Part shown: positions 47,139 through 53,002 of the stretch, piece by piece | Numbering within the stretch: position 1 is the stretch's first letter | Layout: every line of letters begins with the position of its first letter | Source: Flavobacteriaceae bacterium | GTDB lineage: Bacteria; Bacteroidota; Bacteroidia; Flavobacteriales; Flavobacteriaceae | Length of the DNA stretch: 64,000 nucleotides | Direction: 5' to 3' | Assembly: GCA_016649715.1 (NCBI GenBank) | Contig: JAENXC010000008.1 | Span: forward strand, 62,001 to 126,000 | The notes under the pieces: model-generated | Database searches by the model: none | The model's input: the letters and a program-made list of their open reading frames with translations, nothing else | What the model was told of the DNA's origin: nothing | Made by a program: the position numbers and the translations under genes

Positions 47139-47786
47139 TTAAATAATATTATGATTTCTCGCTTTTTGTACCGCTTCAATTTTGCTGTGCACTTGCAATT
47201 TTTTGTAGATGTTTTCAATGTGTTTGCGCACCGTACTTGGCGAAAGGAAAAGATGGTCAGCAATAATGGTGTAACTCAACCCTTTGCTAAGCTGTTCCAA
47301 AACCTCCACTTCGCGAGTGGAAAGTGAAATTTCTTCTTGGTCCCGCGGGTTTTGGATATCTATGGGGTTTCGCAATAGTTTTAAGGTTTTCATTGCGATG
47401 GAAGGATTCATCGCCGCGCCGCCGCTCAGCGTTTCCTGGATTCCTTCGTATAAATCTTTTGGATTGATTTCTTTCAGCAAATAACCATCGGCACCCGCTT
47501 TTATGGCGTTGAAAATATGCTCGTCATTATCAAAAGCCGTGAGCATGATTATTTTGATGTGCGGGTATTTTTGTTTTACAATTTGGGTAGTTTCAATACC
47601 GTTGAGGACGGGCATTTCAATATCCATCAAAATTAAATCGAGATTGTGATTTTCTTCTAGCTTCGTGAGTAGTTCGCTGCCGTTCAGTGATGTGTGTTTT
47701 ATCTGTACATCTTCAAAAAAAGAAAGTTTTTCCTTTATTGCATTTATAAGGAAGGTGTTATCGTCAACTATTGCAATTTTGAGCAT
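47139..47786 (-). CDS. NarL/LuxR-type response regulator
   Basis: 215 residues: receiver domain (1-125, IAIVDDNTF, phospho-Asp in LDLILMDIEMPV, MLTAFD, YLLKEI) and a C-terminal LuxR helix-turn-helix (about 150-212, LSTREVEVLEQLSKGLSYTIIADHLFLSPSTVRKHIENIYKKL). It should bind DNA as a dimer once phosphorylated by the adjacent HisKA_3-type kinases. A 20-bp near-palindrome (47844-47863) lies 57 bases before its start, and three more copies lie in front of neighbouring genes, making it the natural candidate binder. An internal -7-like box lies at 47815-47822. Confidence 0.93.
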   Translation of the reverse strand: MLKIAIVDDNTFLINAIKEKLSFFEDVQIKHTSLNGSELLTKLEENHNLDLILMDIEMPVLNGIETTQIVKQKYPHIKIIMLTAFDNDEHIFNAIKAGADGYLLKEINPKDLYEGIQETLSGGAAMNPSIAMKTLKLLRNPIDIQNPRDQEEISLSTREVEVLEQLSKGLSYTIIADHLFLSPSTVRKHIENIYKKLQVHSKIEAVQKARNHNII

Positions 47787-47814: not shown

Positions 47815-47863
47815 TAAAAATACGTTTTAAGATTTATACCGGAAATAGGGCAATTGACGTATT
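47815..47863 (-). promoter_or_regulatory. Operator-promoter module 1 (response regulator gene)
   Basis: On the minus strand AATACGTCAATTGCCCTATT (47863-47844), then 21 bases, then TATTTTTA (47822-47815), resembling TAnnTTTG. It faces the regulator gene at 47786 and lies in the 118-base gap after the first kinase. Confidence 0.75.
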
Positions 47864-47904
47864 AAACAGATAGTAGGGATTTGGGATTAGATGGCAAAAA
47901 AAAA

Positions 47905-49698
47905 TCATTGTTTTAGTGTTGCTTTTGCTGGAAAATTTAGAATCACTCTTGTGCCTTTATTTATTTTTGAAATATATTCGATATTTCCACCAATTTCTCG
48001 GGCGCGTTTTTTCATATTGTTCAAACCATTGCCGGGCTCAACGACCTCTTGGTCAAAACCGATACCATTATCTGTGATTTCAATTCGAAATTGGTCTTCT
48101 ACTTTTGAAATGTTCACTTCAGTTTCGTCTGCGGAAGCATATTTTAATGCATTGTTCACTGCTTCTTGAATGATCCGATAAATGTTCATTCCTTCAACGG
48201 AAGTAAAAACGTGTGTTTTATCCACGTCTTCATCTATATTAAACGAAAACCCAGTTTTTTCCGAAGCGTTTTTTGCGTGCTCAATAAAGTTTGCAATACG
48301 CGCCTGTAGGTCTTCAAAAGTTATGATTTCCTTGTTCATTGCCCAAATGGTATCGCGCAGTTCATAAATTGTTTGCGAGGTGAAAGCACTAATATTGGTT
48401 AGTTTGTTGCCCAATTTCTCGCCGATGTCCTTGAACCCAAACTTCAGATTATCGATGCTTGAAATAATAAATGTGAGCTGTGCGCCAATGTTGTCGTGCA
48501 AATCTCTTGAAATCCGCAAGCGTTGTTCCTGGAGTTTATTTTGGGTTTCAATTTGTGCCAAGGCGGTTTTCAGTTCGCCCTCCTTTTGAAGTTGACGGTT
48601 TTTGAGCTTTTGTTGGTTGTAGAAAAGATAGCCAATTAAACCCAGTAAAATTGCCAACCCCAAACTGCCGAAGATAATGTTGTTTTTTCGGCGCACTTCC
48701 AAATCTTTTTCGGCCAGTTGGGCGCGTTGTTCCAGAATTTGGTTTTGTTTCTTTTCTGTTTCAAATTCAATATTCAGTGCAGCAATGCTTTGTTGTACTT
48801 TTAAGCTGTGAACACTATCCTTCACCTCCGAATACTGTTCAAAATAATACAATGCCGAATCTGTATTTTTCAGCTTTTTGTAAATATCTGAAAGCATTTT
48901 GAAGTTGTACTGCGTAAGGTTTTGATATTGCTTTTTCAGCGAAATGGGCAATGATTTGTGCATAAATGGTATTGCGTCCTTCCATTTTTTCTCAGCCATA
49001 AAAACTTCACCAAGCTGGGTGTAATTTTCAGCAATTCCCAAAGAATCTGCCCATACCAATCTTTGCAGAAGTGATTTGTTGAAATACTCCCTCGATTTTG
49101 AATAATTTTCCTGCAGCCCATAAACTCCGGCCATATTGCTCCAACTATATGGAATGCCAATGGTATCGTTGATTTTCAGTTTAATTTCCAAGCCTTTGTT
49201 GAAATAAAACAACGCACTGTCCAGCTCTTTGTTTATTTCCTTTAAAACGCCATAATTATTGTAAATATCCTTTAATTCTATCTCAAAATTATTCGCTTCG
49301 GCAACTGCTTTTCCCTTCTGCATATAATAAAGCGCCTGATTTAAATCGCGGTATTTCATACTGTATCCCATTTCGGCATAGTAATCTGCAACTCGGTCAA
49401 GTTGGTTCAGTTTCTCATAAATTTTTATGCCTTTAATAGTGTTTTTGGCGCTTTCCTCATATTTTCCCTGATACCCATAAACCAAGCTGAGCTGAGAATA
49501 GGCGTCGGCCATACCAAGTTCGTATGAAATTTTTTCGGCGTCTCTTAAATTTTTATGAAATAAAGAAACAATGGAATCTTGGGGAATATTGAGCCCTTGA
49601 ACATAGAGTTTGTTAATGGAATCAATGGTTCGTTTATCCTGTGAAAAGGAAGAAGTGAAAATAAAAACGACAGCTAACTGAAGCAGAAATCGATTCAT
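47905..49698 (-). CDS. TPR sensor histidine kinase (HisKA_3 type) A
   Basis: 597 residues: signal sequence (1-19), tetratricopeptide repeats (about 50-300), one transmembrane helix (about 345-365, IIFGSLGLAILLGLIGYLFY), a coiled coil, HisKA_3 with RISRDLHDNIGAQLTFIISS (phospho-His), and HATPase_c (EAVNNALKYA, DNGIGFD). The TPR part is expected to be periplasmic. This kinase type partners NarL-type regulators such as the one downstream. The C-terminal half is strikingly like kinase B at 50016-51977. It is preceded closely by a small membrane protein gene. Confidence 0.93.
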   Translation of the reverse strand: MNRFLLQLAVVFIFTSSFSQDKRTIDSINKLYVQGLNIPQDSIVSLFHKNLRDAEKISYELGMADAYSQLSLVYGYQGKYEESAKNTIKGIKIYEKLNQLDRVADYYAEMGYSMKYRDLNQALYYMQKGKAVAEANNFEIELKDIYNNYGVLKEINKELDSALFYFNKGLEIKLKINDTIGIPYSWSNMAGVYGLQENYSKSREYFNKSLLQRLVWADSLGIAENYTQLGEVFMAEKKWKDAIPFMHKSLPISLKKQYQNLTQYNFKMLSDIYKKLKNTDSALYYFEQYSEVKDSVHSLKVQQSIAALNIEFETEKKQNQILEQRAQLAEKDLEVRRKNNIIFGSLGLAILLGLIGYLFYNQQKLKNRQLQKEGELKTALAQIETQNKLQEQRLRISRDLHDNIGAQLTFIISSIDNLKFGFKDIGEKLGNKLTNISAFTSQTIYELRDTIWAMNKEIITFEDLQARIANFIEHAKNASEKTGFSFNIDEDVDKTHVFTSVEGMNIYRIIQEAVNNALKYASADETEVNISKVEDQFRIEITDNGIGFDQEVVEPGNGLNNMKKRAREIGGNIEYISKINKGTRVILNFPAKATLKQ

Positions 49699-49701
49699 AG
49701 T

Positions 49702-49944
49702 TTATGTTTGGATTTCTAGTTGAACCGCCAATGCTTCATTTAAATTATATTTTAAAAAGTCGTACCTGTTAAGACTGGAATTTCTAAAATTAATTTGAAA
49801 CCGATTTCTGGAAATGCTGTCTTCCAAATCCAAAATGTTTTGATTGTGGATGCGAAACATTGTATTCTTTCTCTTGAAAAACCATAGAAAAAGTACCATA
49901 ACAGACAGTAGTAAAAATAAGGTTATAGCAATTTGCAAATACAT
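49702..49944 (-). CDS. Small single-pass membrane protein between the two kinases
   Basis: 80 residues: an N-terminal transmembrane helix (about 4-24, IAITLFLLLSVMVLFLWFF) and a basic, Asn/Arg-rich tail that would face the cytoplasm or periplasm. No family is recognised. It ends three bases before kinase A, and an operator-promoter module lies 24 bases before its start codon, both of which support a real gene. It may be an accessory subunit of the kinase, but this is inference from position. Confidence 0.65.
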   Translation of the reverse strand: MYLQIAITLFLLLSVMVLFLWFFKRKNTMFRIHNQNILDLEDSISRNRFQINFRNSSLNRYDFLKYNLNEALAVQLEIQT

Positions 49945-49967
49945 TTTTTGGGCTTGGTTTAAAAACT

Positions 49968-50016
49968 TAAAGATAGTTGTATTTCACTTTTAAGCACATA
50001 GGGCAATTGTCGTATT
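49968..50016 (-). promoter_or_regulatory. Operator-promoter module 2 (small membrane protein and kinase A)
   Basis: On the minus strand AATACGACAATTGCCCTATG (50016-49997), 21 bases, then TATCTTTA (49975-49968). The operator overlaps the stop codon of kinase B by one base and faces the 49944 start. Confidence 0.75.
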
Positions 50017-51977
50017 TAAAAAATCAATTTTACAGTGGTCCCCTTTCCTTTTTCTGAAGCGACAGCGACGCTTCCATCCAAATCTTTAGCGCGTTTTTTA
50101 ATATTCGCAAGGCCGTTTCCAAATTCGGTATTTTCCAAATCAAAACCTTTTCCGTTGTCTAAAATCTCAACTTTCAAACCTTCTTTATCTGCTTCGGAAG
50201 ATTTTTCAATACTTACTTTTATGTTTGTGGCTCCTGAATATTTAAGCGAATTATTTACTGCTTCCTGTATAATTCTATAAATATTCATGCCTTGTACGGA
50301 GGTAAAATGCATCTCTTTTAAAATGGTATTGTCCACCTCAAACTTAAAATTGACATCGCTCGCAATTTTGGCTTTTTCAATAAAATTTGAAATGCGCGCT
50401 TGTAAATCCTCCACCGAAATATCGGTTTTGTTCATCGCCCAAATTGTATCGCGAAGTTCATAAATGGTCTGTGAGGTAAACTCGCTTATTTTTCCCAATT
50501 TATTGGTTACCGAAGTAGTGGCGCCTTCCAGCCCATACTTTAAATTGTCTATGGAAGAAATGATGAAAGTAAGTTGCGAACCAATGTTGTCGTGCAAATC
50601 GCGGGATATGCGGAGCCGCTGTTCCTGCAATTGATTTTGGGTCTCAATTTTTGCGAGAGCGGTTTTTAGCTCGCCTTCTTTTTGCAGTTGGCGGTTTTTT
50701 AGTTTTTGTTGGTTGTAGAATAGATAACCGATAAGGCCTAAAAGCAGCGCAAGCCCCAAGCTTCCGAAGATAAGATTATTTTTCTGCTCCACCTCAAGTT
50801 CCCTTTCGGCCAAGTTTGCGCGGGTTTCTGCAAGAGCCCGCTCTTTTTCGGAAATATTGAATTTAGTTTCCAGTACCGCCGTATTTTCTGCATTTTGTTG
50901 TGAAAAAATACTGTCCCGTAATGCAATAGCCTTTATAAAAAACTCATTGCCTTTTTTTGGGTCGTTGTTCAAGAAATTGGCCTGTGCTACCGCATAATAA
51001 TATTCAGAAATACTTACCTTTTGTTCTGGAAATTGCTGGATTAAATTTTCGCCCTTCTTCAGTATTTTAAGTGCTTCTTTTATATTGTCTTTTAGAATAT
51101 AAGCTTCCGCAAGATTATTGATTGAAGTAATCACTTTATCTACACCAATATTGGTAGAAAGCCTACCATCTATCACTTCTTGTAAGAGAGGTATGGCAAG
51201 ATCGGTTCTGTTCGTTTTTTGGTATAGGCTAGCCAAGGAATGGGTAATGGCAAAATACAAATCCTGATTCCCAACTTCTTTGGCCAGATTTCTACCTTCA
51301 AGCAACATTTTTTTGGCTTCCGGGAAATCTCCCTTATCCTGTAGGTTAATGGCTATGTTGTTAAGAGAAACCGGTATATCCTTTGTTTTGTTATATTTCC
51401 GGCGAATTGCAAGGGCCTTTTGATGATATTCCAAGGCTTTATCGGCCATGTTCATATCCTGATAAATAAGACCAATGTTATTCAAGAAAGTATCGTCTTT
51501 ATCGGGTGTACCGTATTTTCTGTTCAGCACAAGTGCCTGAAAAAAATAGTCCAAAGCTTTTTGATAGTTTCCTTGGTTCCAATTGGACATTCCAAGACCG
51601 TTCGTACATCTTGCCTCAAGGTCTGGAAAGCCATATTTTTTACTCATCAAAAGGGCTTTCTTGAAATAAAACTGGGCAGAATCATAAATTCCTTTAACAT
51701 CATAGTAAATTCCATAGGTGTTGGTGAGCCGTATTTTACTGTAAGCTGTATTTGGCGTAGTATTTTCCTTTAATCCTTTTTGAAGAAAACTTTTTGCTTT
51801 TTCCGGTTCATTAAAAATATAATAAAAGCCCAAATCATTATAGATTGCAAGCCTTGTGGAATCGTTAGCAGTTTTGGCAACTTGCATCAAGCTGTCCATT
51901 TTCTTTTCTGCAGATTGAGAAAAGAGGGTGGAAATTCCCAAAGCCCAAAACAAAAAAACATACAAAATACCTTTCAT
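50016..51977 (-). CDS. TPR sensor histidine kinase (HisKA_3 type) B
   Basis: 653 residues: signal sequence (1-22), more TPR units than kinase A (about 50-370, with motifs such as KALEYHQKALAIRRKY), a transmembrane helix (about 408-428), HisKA_3 (RISRDLHDNIGSQLTFIISSIDNLKYG) and HATPase_c (EAVNNSLKYSG, DNGKGFD). From the helix onward it is nearly the same as kinase A, while the sensing part differs. No second regulator is encoded, so both kinases probably feed the regulator at 47139. Its leader contains a candidate short RNA and terminator. Confidence 0.93.
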   Translation of the reverse strand: MKGILYVFLFWALGISTLFSQSAEKKMDSLMQVAKTANDSTRLAIYNDLGFYYIFNEPEKAKSFLQKGLKENTTPNTAYSKIRLTNTYGIYYDVKGIYDSAQFYFKKALLMSKKYGFPDLEARCTNGLGMSNWNQGNYQKALDYFFQALVLNRKYGTPDKDDTFLNNIGLIYQDMNMADKALEYHQKALAIRRKYNKTKDIPVSLNNIAINLQDKGDFPEAKKMLLEGRNLAKEVGNQDLYFAITHSLASLYQKTNRTDLAIPLLQEVIDGRLSTNIGVDKVITSINNLAEAYILKDNIKEALKILKKGENLIQQFPEQKVSISEYYYAVAQANFLNNDPKKGNEFFIKAIALRDSIFSQQNAENTAVLETKFNISEKERALAETRANLAERELEVEQKNNLIFGSLGLALLLGLIGYLFYNQQKLKNRQLQKEGELKTALAKIETQNQLQEQRLRISRDLHDNIGSQLTFIISSIDNLKYGLEGATTSVTNKLGKISEFTSQTIYELRDTIWAMNKTDISVEDLQARISNFIEKAKIASDVNFKFEVDNTILKEMHFTSVQGMNIYRIIQEAVNNSLKYSGATNIKVSIEKSSEADKEGLKVEILDNGKGFDLENTEFGNGLANIKKRAKDLDGSVAVASEKGKGTTVKLIF

Positions 51978-52007
51978 AAAAAATTATTGTAGAGGCTTCT
52001 AAAGTAC

Positions 52008-52043
52008 ATAAAAAAACAAACCCCATAGTTTAACATGGGGTTT
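52008..52043 (-). terminator. Strong terminator inside the kinase B leader
   Basis: On the minus strand AAACCCCAT, an 8-base loop, ATGGGGTTT, then GTTTTTTT: a perfect 9-bp stem (52018-52026 with 52035-52043). It lies about 40 bases before the kinase B start, so it either ends a separate RNA or attenuates kinase B. Confidence 0.85.
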
Positions 52044-52118
52044 CTGAACTTTGGGCACTCCTCACATCGTCCTCGGTTTGAAAAATAATCTGGTTAGCAG
52101 ATTATTTCTTAAATATTA
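52008..52118 (-). ncRNA. Candidate small RNA or attenuated leader upstream of kinase B
   Basis: The interval between the third operator-promoter module (expected start near 52118) and the terminator at 52043-52008, about 110 bases. It contains a second perfect 9-bp hairpin, AATAATCTG/CAGATTATT (52084-52106), followed by T's on the minus strand, and a GC-richer middle (GAGGACGATGTGAGGAG). I see no peptide frame. It matches no RNA family I know. Confidence 0.5.
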
Positions 52119-52123
52119 TTAAA

Positions 52124-52172
52124 CAAATTTGCTTCATAATAAAGCTGAAATCAATAGGGCAATTGACGTATT
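52124..52172 (-). promoter_or_regulatory. Operator-promoter module 3 (short RNA / kinase B)
   Basis: On the minus strand AATACGTCAATTGCCCTATT (52172-52153), identical to module 1, then 21 bases, then CAAATTTG (52131-52124), one mismatch from TAnnTTTG. Confidence 0.72.
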
Positions 52173-52185
52173 CTCAGTTTTCAAG

Positions 52186-52235
52186 TATTCAGTAAGTCAG
52201 TAAATCGGCAATTCAGTACGCATTGGCCTGAGGTC
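52186..52235. repeat. CAGTAAGTCAGTAAATCGGCAATTCAGT-type degenerate repeat
   Basis: A run of TATTCAGT / GTCAGT / AATTCAGT words in the gap between kinase B and the DUF-type lipoprotein gene. It belongs with the CAGTAGGCAGT family seen at 53009 and 54008. The rest of the gap from here to 52377 shows nothing recognisable. Confidence 0.5.
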
Positions 52236-52377
52236 AGTGAAATCTTGAAAAACCTCTAAACTTTTAAACTCCTCAACTTATCGACCTTTTTTCAAAAAAT
52301 ACCGGAGGAAAAACTTGCGTTTCGCCCCCGGCCCACGTAAAAACCTCAACACTGAGATTTTCTTAAGTGCCTTTGAA

Positions 52378-52902
52378 CTATTTAAAATTCAAGTCAAAAG
52401 AACCATCAGTGATGTTCTTCAAGGATTGGTCACCATTTACATTCTTGGCCGTATAGTGAAAAGTTCCTTTAATATTAGTATCCGTTTTCTCGGAAACCTT
52501 AATTTCGCCTACAACCCCGCTGCCCTCATAAGGTGCGCTCCACGATTGTGCATTTTGCGGATTGTTTACGTCTATCTCGATATAAGTAGAATTCACAAAC
52601 ACATTTGTATCGCTGATCTCATAGGTGCCCGGTCCATCAAAACCGCCATTTATGCCAATCATAATAGCTTTTCCCGAAGCATCGGAACCTTGAATTATAA
52701 CTGTTGTTGCTCCATTTCCACTTGAAATGCTTGCGTAGGAAGCGATTTCAAGCGAGGTGAAATTGTTACCGTCCACTTTGGCCACAATTGTACCGGCACC
52801 AGCAGATCCGCCGCCGCCGCCGCCATCGTCTTTTTTACAAGAAGTTAAACTTATGGCAGTTACGGCCATCAATACTAAAATTGTTTTGTTGAGTATTTTC
52901 AT
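52378..52902 (-). CDS. Bacteroidota beta-sandwich lipoprotein with poly-glycine linker
   Basis: 174 residues. A lipoprotein signal peptide (lipobox SLTSC, Cys 22) is followed by KKDDGGGGGGSAGAG, a flexible linker after the lipidated cysteine that often marks surface-exposed lipoproteins. The rest is a small beta domain (VDGNNFTSLEIASYASIS, GPGTYEIS, GTFHYTAKN, ITDGSFDLNF) of the DUF6252-like type found in Bacteroidota. Function unknown. Operator-promoter module 4 lies 52 bases before the start, so it is the most likely non-regulatory output of the two-component cluster. Confidence 0.8.
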   Translation of the reverse strand: MKILNKTILVLMAVTAISLTSCKKDDGGGGGGSAGAGTIVAKVDGNNFTSLEIASYASISSGNGATTVIIQGSDASGKAIMIGINGGFDGPGTYEISDTNVFVNSTYIEIDVNNPQNAQSWSAPYEGSGVVGEIKVSEKTDTNIKGTFHYTAKNVNGDQSLKNITDGSFDLNFK

Positions 52903-52953
52903 TTTATTTTGGTTTAGTGTCCCGACGTGGCGGGTACGTTATTATTGTTGAAG

Positions 52954-53002
52954 CAAAATTGTGGCAATAGGGAAGGTTTCACAATAGGGCAATTGCCGTA
53001 TT
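52954..53002 (-). promoter_or_regulatory. Operator-promoter module 4 (lipoprotein gene)
   Basis: On the minus strand AATACGGCAATTGCCCTATT (53002-52983), the most symmetrical copy, then 21 bases, then CAATTTTG (52961-52954), one mismatch from TAnnTTTG. Confidence 0.75.

Follow-up and report, generated by a model that had tools for sequence, protein, structure and literature searches.

Four conserved operator-promoter modules of a putative autoregulated two-component system, and an associated structured RNA, in a Flavobacteriaceae bacterium

We analysed a window of 64,000 nucleotides (nt) from a Flavobacteriaceae bacterium (assembly GCA_016649715.1, contig JAENXC010000008.1; C25:62001-126000 of genome G000, which has 3,398,296 bases in 71 contigs). 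A cluster in this window encodes a response regulator, two sensor kinases, a small membrane protein and a lipoprotein-like protein, accompanied by four near-identical operators and a structured RNA; all these features are on the minus strand, and coordinates without a prefix are those of the window. The regulator (47139..47786, 215 amino acids (aa)) is of the NarL/FixJ (LuxR-type) class, as its receiver (Response_reg, 86.8 bits; cut-off 30.2) and GerE (64.5 bits; cut-off 23.5) domains both score above the Pfam cut-offs. It is not a NarL equivalog by the NCBIfam model (130.8 bits, below the cut-off of 250), and a close homologue is found in all 28 genomes of Aequorivita, the genus to which G000 belongs. 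Kinase A (47905..49698) and kinase B (50016..51977) both consist of TPR, HisKA_3 and HATPase_c domains according to Pfam, with HisKA_3 and HATPase_c above their cut-offs.

Immediately 5' of kinase A there is a small membrane protein of 80 aa (49702..49944) with no match in Pfam or NCBIfam, which has homologues in most Aequorivita loci and is a candidate accessory of the kinases. By eye, this protein has a conserved C-terminal motif, about LNxYDFLKYNLNEAL, and small proteins resembling it adjoin kinases in other genera. The lipoprotein-like protein (52378..52902, 174 aa) is related to DUF6252, scoring 26.5 bits, slightly below the cut-off of 27.2, and its homologue in G021 reaches 39.4 bits. 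The usual order in the genus is AlaS-GSCFA-lipoprotein-(propeller)-RNA-(kinase B, DUF6498 or other)-small protein-kinase A-regulator-(M28)-MetK, and in most Aequorivita loci operators stand 5' of the lipoprotein, the propeller gene or the RNA, the small protein and the regulator. The cluster of G009 also encodes an apparently repetitive secreted protein of 2075 aa (L095:7059-13286).

Regarding the operators, a preliminary description of this stretch had reported four near-identical copies on the minus strand, and all of them are there. Operator 1 (47844..47863, core 47845-47862) lies 5' of the regulator gene; operator 2 (49997..50016, core 49998-50015) lies 5' of the small protein and kinase A and shares the last base of kinase B; operator 3 (52153..52172, core 52154-52171) lies 5' of the RNA; and operator 4 (52983..53002, core 52984-53001) lies 5' of the lipoprotein. 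We described them by a core, ATACGNCAATTGCCCTAT, an asymmetric pattern, ATACGNCAATTGNCSTAT, and a symmetric palindrome, ATACGNCAWWTGNCGTAT. No further copy had been seen in the window, and a search allowing up to 3 mismatches gives just these four places, where 0.05 would be expected from shuffles. They are also the only places in G000 with 0-1 mismatch to ATACGNCAATTGNCSTAT, so that every genomic copy at this level belongs to the cluster. Allowing 1 mismatch to ATACGNCAWWTGNCGTAT adds a single place, C48:259750; neither this place nor its counterpart in G013 is followed by a box at the fixed offset described below. Additional copies of ATACGTCAAATGCCTTAT in other Aequorivita genomes were discarded as operators, being inside a coding gene in the three that were inspected.

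Each operator is followed by a -7-like box: TATTTTTA at 47815..47822 in module 1, where a second box, TATCTTTA, begins 9 nt further on; TATCTTTA at 49968..49975 in module 2; CAAATTTG at 52124..52131 in module 3; and CAATTTTG at 52954..52961 in module 4. The four boxes have an identical offset from their operators, and the distance in module 3 is gapless in the alignment of all 21 sequences; transcription from this module is predicted to start at about 52118. This fixed spacing extends well beyond the window. From 29 Aequorivita loci we collected 93 sites that differ from ATACGNCAWWTGNCGTAT at no more than 2 positions, and thinned them to 52 by 75% identity over the downstream 60 nt. In 44 of these 52 non-redundant sites a box of the form [TC]AnnTTT[GA] starts exactly 23 nt past the 18-nt core (+23), whereas a background of 0.0026 per position means that about 0.14 of the 52 sites would be expected at any single offset. 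The next commonest offset, 32, accounts for 12 sites, the second box of the regulator promoter among them. Outside the genus 73 sites were collected at 0-1 mismatch, and 48 of them have the +23 box in one of the two orientations.

The Bacteroidota promoter consensus has TTG at -33 and TAnnTTTG at -7. Measured against it, the operator would be centred at about -43 and its end would overlap -33. The preliminary description had put the site just upstream of the -33 element or in place of it. This needs a correction, as the operator end reaches into the expected -33. Starting with the last core base, the next three letters are TTG in two of the four modules (RNA and lipoprotein), TTT in that of the regulator and TGT in that of the small protein, so that replacement holds only in part. 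Past the core there is mostly a T, followed mostly by G or T, and after these two bases no column exceeds 0.35 bits until the base preceding the box, which is what is expected when an activator replaces the -33 contacts. Thus the geometry suits an activator of class II type, though repression would also be compatible with it.

In order to know whether the operator goes together with the regulator, we compared 148 genomes, taking a match at E <=1e-45 as the regulator and a site with no more than 1 mismatch to the symmetric palindrome as the operator. The regulator was present in 48 genomes and the operator in 51; 42 genomes had both, 6 the regulator only, 9 the operator only and 91 neither. Therefore 42 of the 48 regulator-bearing genomes have the operator, vs 9 of the 100 others (odds ratio 71, Fisher p 1.4e-21, relatedness ignored); outside the genus the figures are 14 of 20 vs 9 of 100 (odds ratio 24, relatedness likewise ignored). 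A reversed control pattern appeared in 16 of the 148 genomes, a frequency close to that of the operator in genomes lacking the regulator. We also examined 79 loci from named genome records, corresponding to the best 80 regulator matches listed (61-96% identity, 1.49 Mb), from Aequorivita, Flavobacterium, Mesonia, Psychroserpens, Polaribacter, Roseivirga and other genera. These loci hold 33, 48 and 47 sites at 0, 1 and 2 mismatches, vs 0, 0 and 1 in one block shuffle, so the operators recur upstream of the orthologous clusters both in Aequorivita and in the named genera.

Several Aequorivita genomes also have operators outside the cluster, 5' of genes for secreted proteins. One of them precedes a gene for a 298-aa protein (G016, G024) and has its box at +23. 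Those in front of a papain-like peptidase (G024, G015), of its 612-aa neighbour (G024) and of a protein with type IX secretion system sorting (G013, and G027 by likeness) lack a perfect +23 box. In G024 this peptidase, which is also found in G015, is the neighbour of a WD40-caspase protein, and an operator-like site lies upstream (L120:1212-6003).

A different account would be that another regulator binds the palindrome, or that the present one represses from it rather than activates. The overlap of the operator end with -33, and the TTG found there in two of the four modules, would suit a repressor too. Nevertheless, the presence of the operator follows that of the regulator across genomes, the operators cluster around the regulator gene in the named genera, and the featureless stretch between operator and box is as one would expect with an activator, so that we consider this account rather unlikely. 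The proposal that the four modules form a two-component regulon is well supported by the scarcity of copies elsewhere, the conservation of the cluster, the spacing of the boxes and the co-occurrence with the regulator, the binding itself being a prediction. We found no operator of this kind in the open-licence literature, as judged from titles and the beginnings of abstracts.

The preliminary description had assigned one transcription unit to each module. This holds for the regulator, for the small protein with kinase A and for the lipoprotein, but module 3, which had been taken to face the leader of kinase B, faces instead a conserved RNA that is terminated before that gene. The RNA (52009..52110, about 110 nt) has three hairpins: hairpin 1 (52083-52107), hairpin 2 (52048-52077), whose loop AUGUGAGGAG is at 52058-52067, and an intrinsic terminator stem-loop (52018-52043) followed by a T-run, 31 nt before kinase B. 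Its predicted fold has -28.7 kcal/mol (z -3.9), a value reached by 0 of 200 shuffles, and the folds of five relatives range from z -0.4 (L089, with the terminator clipped) to -3.9.

A model built from six copies of the RNA matches all 28 Aequorivita genomes in single copy, G007 having a second, weak match, and there are weak matches also in G088, G089 and G103. Family-wide matches in 288 of 397 genomes (E <=0.01) were not counted as the RNA; most of these weak matches seem to be terminators alone. Among 28 distinct rows, 91.6% of the cells are paired and 20 of the 28 pairs have changed on both sides; none of 500 shuffles reaches any of the five measures, and sliding the pair partner by 1-3 columns cuts the pairing to 33-49%. 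The loop of hairpin 2 retains UGAGG in 27 of the 28 genomes, 15 of them in the form GAAGUGAGGAG.

A known RNA family, such as FopS or others, was ruled out because Rfam gave no match above threshold. In the window stretch there were two weak matches far below the gathering score, of which only rimP (22.3 bits, needing 47) overlaps the RNA, and in seven related loci there was no match at E <=1. No earlier description of this RNA was found in the open-licence literature by titles and the first parts of abstracts, and it appears to be a previously unrecognised structured RNA.

The start codon of kinase B comes about 31 nt after the end of the terminator, and by eye no separate promoter was recognised between them, so the RNA might act in cis, as a leader or attenuator that adjusts how much transcription enters kinase B. 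We reject this as the main explanation because the gene behind the RNA varies: it is kinase B in some genomes only, and elsewhere the small protein, DUF6498 or other genes. Furthermore, in half of the genomes the RNA trails a propeller gene, and the minimum-energy folds, the only ones considered, contain no antiterminator pairing. A leader of kinase B is therefore quite improbable.

This propeller gene points to the origin of the RNA. In 14 of the 28 genomes the RNA comes directly after the stop codon of a gene of about 621 aa that encodes a PQQ_2/BamB-like propeller (tested on the copy of G009) and has an operator 55-80 nt before its start. In these genomes the RNA is the conserved structured 3' end of an operator-preceded gene and closes with an intrinsic terminator, as in a 3' untranslated region (3'UTR) RNA of the CpxQ type. 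The other 14 genomes, G000 included, have no match to the propeller protein at E <=1e-20. In 13 of these 14 the operator and its box are found 56-134 nt before the RNA itself, vs 0 of the 14 propeller-bearing genomes (up to 5 mismatches were allowed in this search and 0-3 found). The exception is G025, where the lipoprotein is followed by an apparent 3' remnant of the propeller gene and then by the RNA.

On a quick tree of MetK, the response regulator and AlaS, with support from the Shimodaira-Hasegawa-like approximate likelihood ratio test (SH-aLRT) only and with five rows less than half filled, the presence of the propeller needs at least 5 changes, 4 of them forced by well supported branches, gain and loss being counted alike. 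The three outgroups all carry the gene. Because of these outgroups and the apparent remnant in G025, we infer that the propeller gene was lost rather than gained.

Outside the genus we inspected 16 rows, from L236-L265, L269-L273 and L296-L308, that have TGAGG[AG], a stem of at least 5 pairs and a terminator. In 6 other genera UGAGGAG and a terminator follow the propeller gene, in 9 genomes altogether (G088, G103, G159, G186, G283, G358, G369, G386, G421), and UGAGGAG mostly forms a hairpin loop there. Rows L252 and L254 were set aside, the latter because it sits behind another gene.

These 3' ends also bear on another proposal, namely that the RNA is just a strong terminator with a stabilising hairpin of the propeller mRNA, and a passive remnant once the gene is lost. 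In its favour, the terminator-bearing RNA does form the 3' end of the propeller gene in 14 genomes. Moreover, 12 of the 24 propeller 3' ends in the named loci other than Aequorivita carry a different short element, ATCTTGTTGTTGAGATT, before the terminator (L138, L139, L143, L145, L148, L149, L151, L152, L164, L168, L174 and L181), and that of L140 is close to it. On the other hand, hairpin 2 shows compensating changes in its stem around a loop that hardly varies, the RNA is kept in every propeller-free genome and nearly always with operator and box, and the core of its loop is shared by an RNA at another locus. We therefore regard a passive remnant as quite unlikely.

This other RNA lies between coxA and ruvB. 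It was found as a 35.5-bit match of the model at C48:125052-125125 of G000 (locus L308), and it has its own TAGCTTTA box, a hairpin with the UGAGGA loop UGUGAGGAG and a terminator. Of 17 coxA-ruvB gaps in Aequorivita, 16 contain it. Four of the 17 were found via the loop itself, one via the model and 12 via synteny, of which 11 have the RNA; a 13th stretch, that of G009, stopped at the contig end. G088 has an RNA of this second type downstream of coxA. Five of the second RNAs were folded, with z from -2.3 to -5.7. The first and second RNAs of G000 have GATGTGAGGAGT in common, and GAAGTGAGGA is found in the remaining 15 Aequorivita second RNAs and in 15 of the 28 first RNAs. The loop variants do not match in all genomes, as in G020, where the first RNA has GATGTGAGGAGC and the second GAAGTGAGGAA. 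The simplest reason for the common core would be a shared target or protein. By eye, an inverted-repeat-like stretch (about TACGTA...GTAGTACTACGTA in relatives) precedes the second RNA and may be another operator.

Regarding possible targets, the exact complement of the loop, CTCCTCACTTC, has 42 matches in the 28 genomes, 15 of which are the first RNA itself. Of the remaining 27 we fetched 20, among which the second RNA accounts for 4, antisense and sense places within reading frames for 7 and 6, respectively, and gaps for 3. In G005, G010 and G016 an 11-nt complement of the loop makes up codons 4-8 of a homologous secreted-protein gene (MIKTLLTSLLLC.. or MFKLLLTSVFFF..; L314, L328 and L313, respectively), and the first RNAs of these three genomes bear exactly the matching loop. 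In G012 the complement is at about the same place in another secreted-protein gene. These matches are a lead only, because signal-peptide codons make chance likely.

The leader of a WG-repeat gene (L268:3548-4681) was a further candidate. The gene occurs in 22 of the 28 genomes, and 18 leaders could be parsed (three were not located and one locus is partial). The loop-complementary CTCCTCA is at the homologous place in 10 of the 18, elsewhere in G001, and absent from 7, G000 included. We dropped this target because loop and leader agree in part of the cases only.

Taking these results together, we think it probable, on the sequence comparisons, that the four modules are the promoters of an autoregulated two-component system and that the RNA is a trans-acting small RNA (sRNA) from the 3' end of the propeller gene. 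The system would consist of the NarL-type regulator, the two TPR-domain HisKA_3 kinases and the small membrane protein. Very probably the palindrome ATACGNCAWWTGNCGTAT is bound by a dimer of the regulator, which would then act as an activator; the centre of this site would lie some 43 nt before the start, and its end overlaps -33. Its outputs would be the regulator itself, the small protein with kinase A, the lipoprotein and the trans-acting sRNA. The sRNA would have its origin in an operator-driven gene for a secreted beta-propeller, as the conserved 3' end of that gene together with its terminator; after the loss of this open reading frame the operator promoter would still transcribe the RNA, or, in G025, the lipoprotein operon would do so. 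The contact of the sRNA, either base pairing with target mRNAs or binding of a protein, is probably made by its near-invariant UGAGG loop. The core of this loop is shared by the second RNA, which has its own box. Because of its membrane and secreted parts, the system is probably envelope-sensing, with surface proteins and an sRNA as its outputs.

The fuller proposal for the RNA is more tentative, and we give it slightly less than an even chance: an operator-driven hairpin-loop sRNA would have been freed by repeated gene loss (at least 4-5 changes on the tree), and since its loop core is shared with the coxA-ruvB sRNA under a different promoter, two signals would converge on one set of targets.

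Several observations weigh against these interpretations. Six of the 48 genomes with the regulator have no operator at 1 mismatch to the symmetric pattern, and three genomes scored as propeller-free are less than 90% complete (G003, G007, G019). The structural alignment behind the covariation counts was fitted to the model, and its 28 rows include one artefact, a minus-strand match in L227. The RNA of G008 has lost the UGAGG loop, hairpin 2 of the window is degenerate with 6 of 10 pairs in our own reading of the alignment, and UGAGGAG has no clear loop in G358. Half of the propeller 3' ends in the named loci outside the genus have the other element instead. The coxA-ruvB gap of G001 lacks the second RNA, and one of the five minimum-energy folds of second RNAs lacks the expected hairpin. 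Finally, the target candidates hold in few genomes, or fail in G000.

Among known systems, FimS/FimR of Porphyromonas gingivalis has a sensor kinase, FimS, of the same make-up, and FimR is of LuxR type; the window kinases scored far below the FimS equivalog cut-off of 600 (NF053520), with 90 bits for kinase B and 47.5 for the other. The closest known arrangement to the one proposed here is that of CpxR, CpxP and CpxQ, where the RNA CpxQ ends in a terminator. In the Enterobacteriaceae a two-component activator drives the gene of an envelope protein, cpxP, whose conserved 3' end is the sRNA (PMC9438474; PMC4817254). The present RNA differs from CpxQ in its sequence context and in the phylum of the host, and its parent gene is absent in half of the genomes, where the promoter then precedes the RNA.

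The nearest cases in the Bacteroidota are GibS/FopS and Rfp18. GibS and FopS of Bacteroides thetaiotaomicron are paralogous sRNAs with a common seed and different promoters, one member of FopS being derived from a 3'UTR (PMC11697453). The RNAs described here resemble them as Bacteroidota RNAs that share a core under different promoters, but the seed of FopS lies in a single-stranded 5' part, whereas the conserved letters here form a hairpin loop. Rfp18 of Flavobacterium psychrophilum is described as a structured sRNA kept in related flavobacteria and needed if metalloproteases are to be expressed precisely (PMC9723704). The present RNA is likewise structured and conserved among related flavobacteria, a likeness by description only.

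The operator comes with its regulator, with a promoter geometry and with outputs that can be followed across species, and therefore the signal and the regulon are testable. To our knowledge, rather few sRNAs have been characterised in the Bacteroidota, and for this phylum the RNA would add a covarying element with a clear candidate contact loop. RNAs that still have the parent gene, that have kept what seems a remnant of it, or that stand without it form a natural series, along which the possible passage from a 3'UTR RNA to an independent sRNA can be followed.

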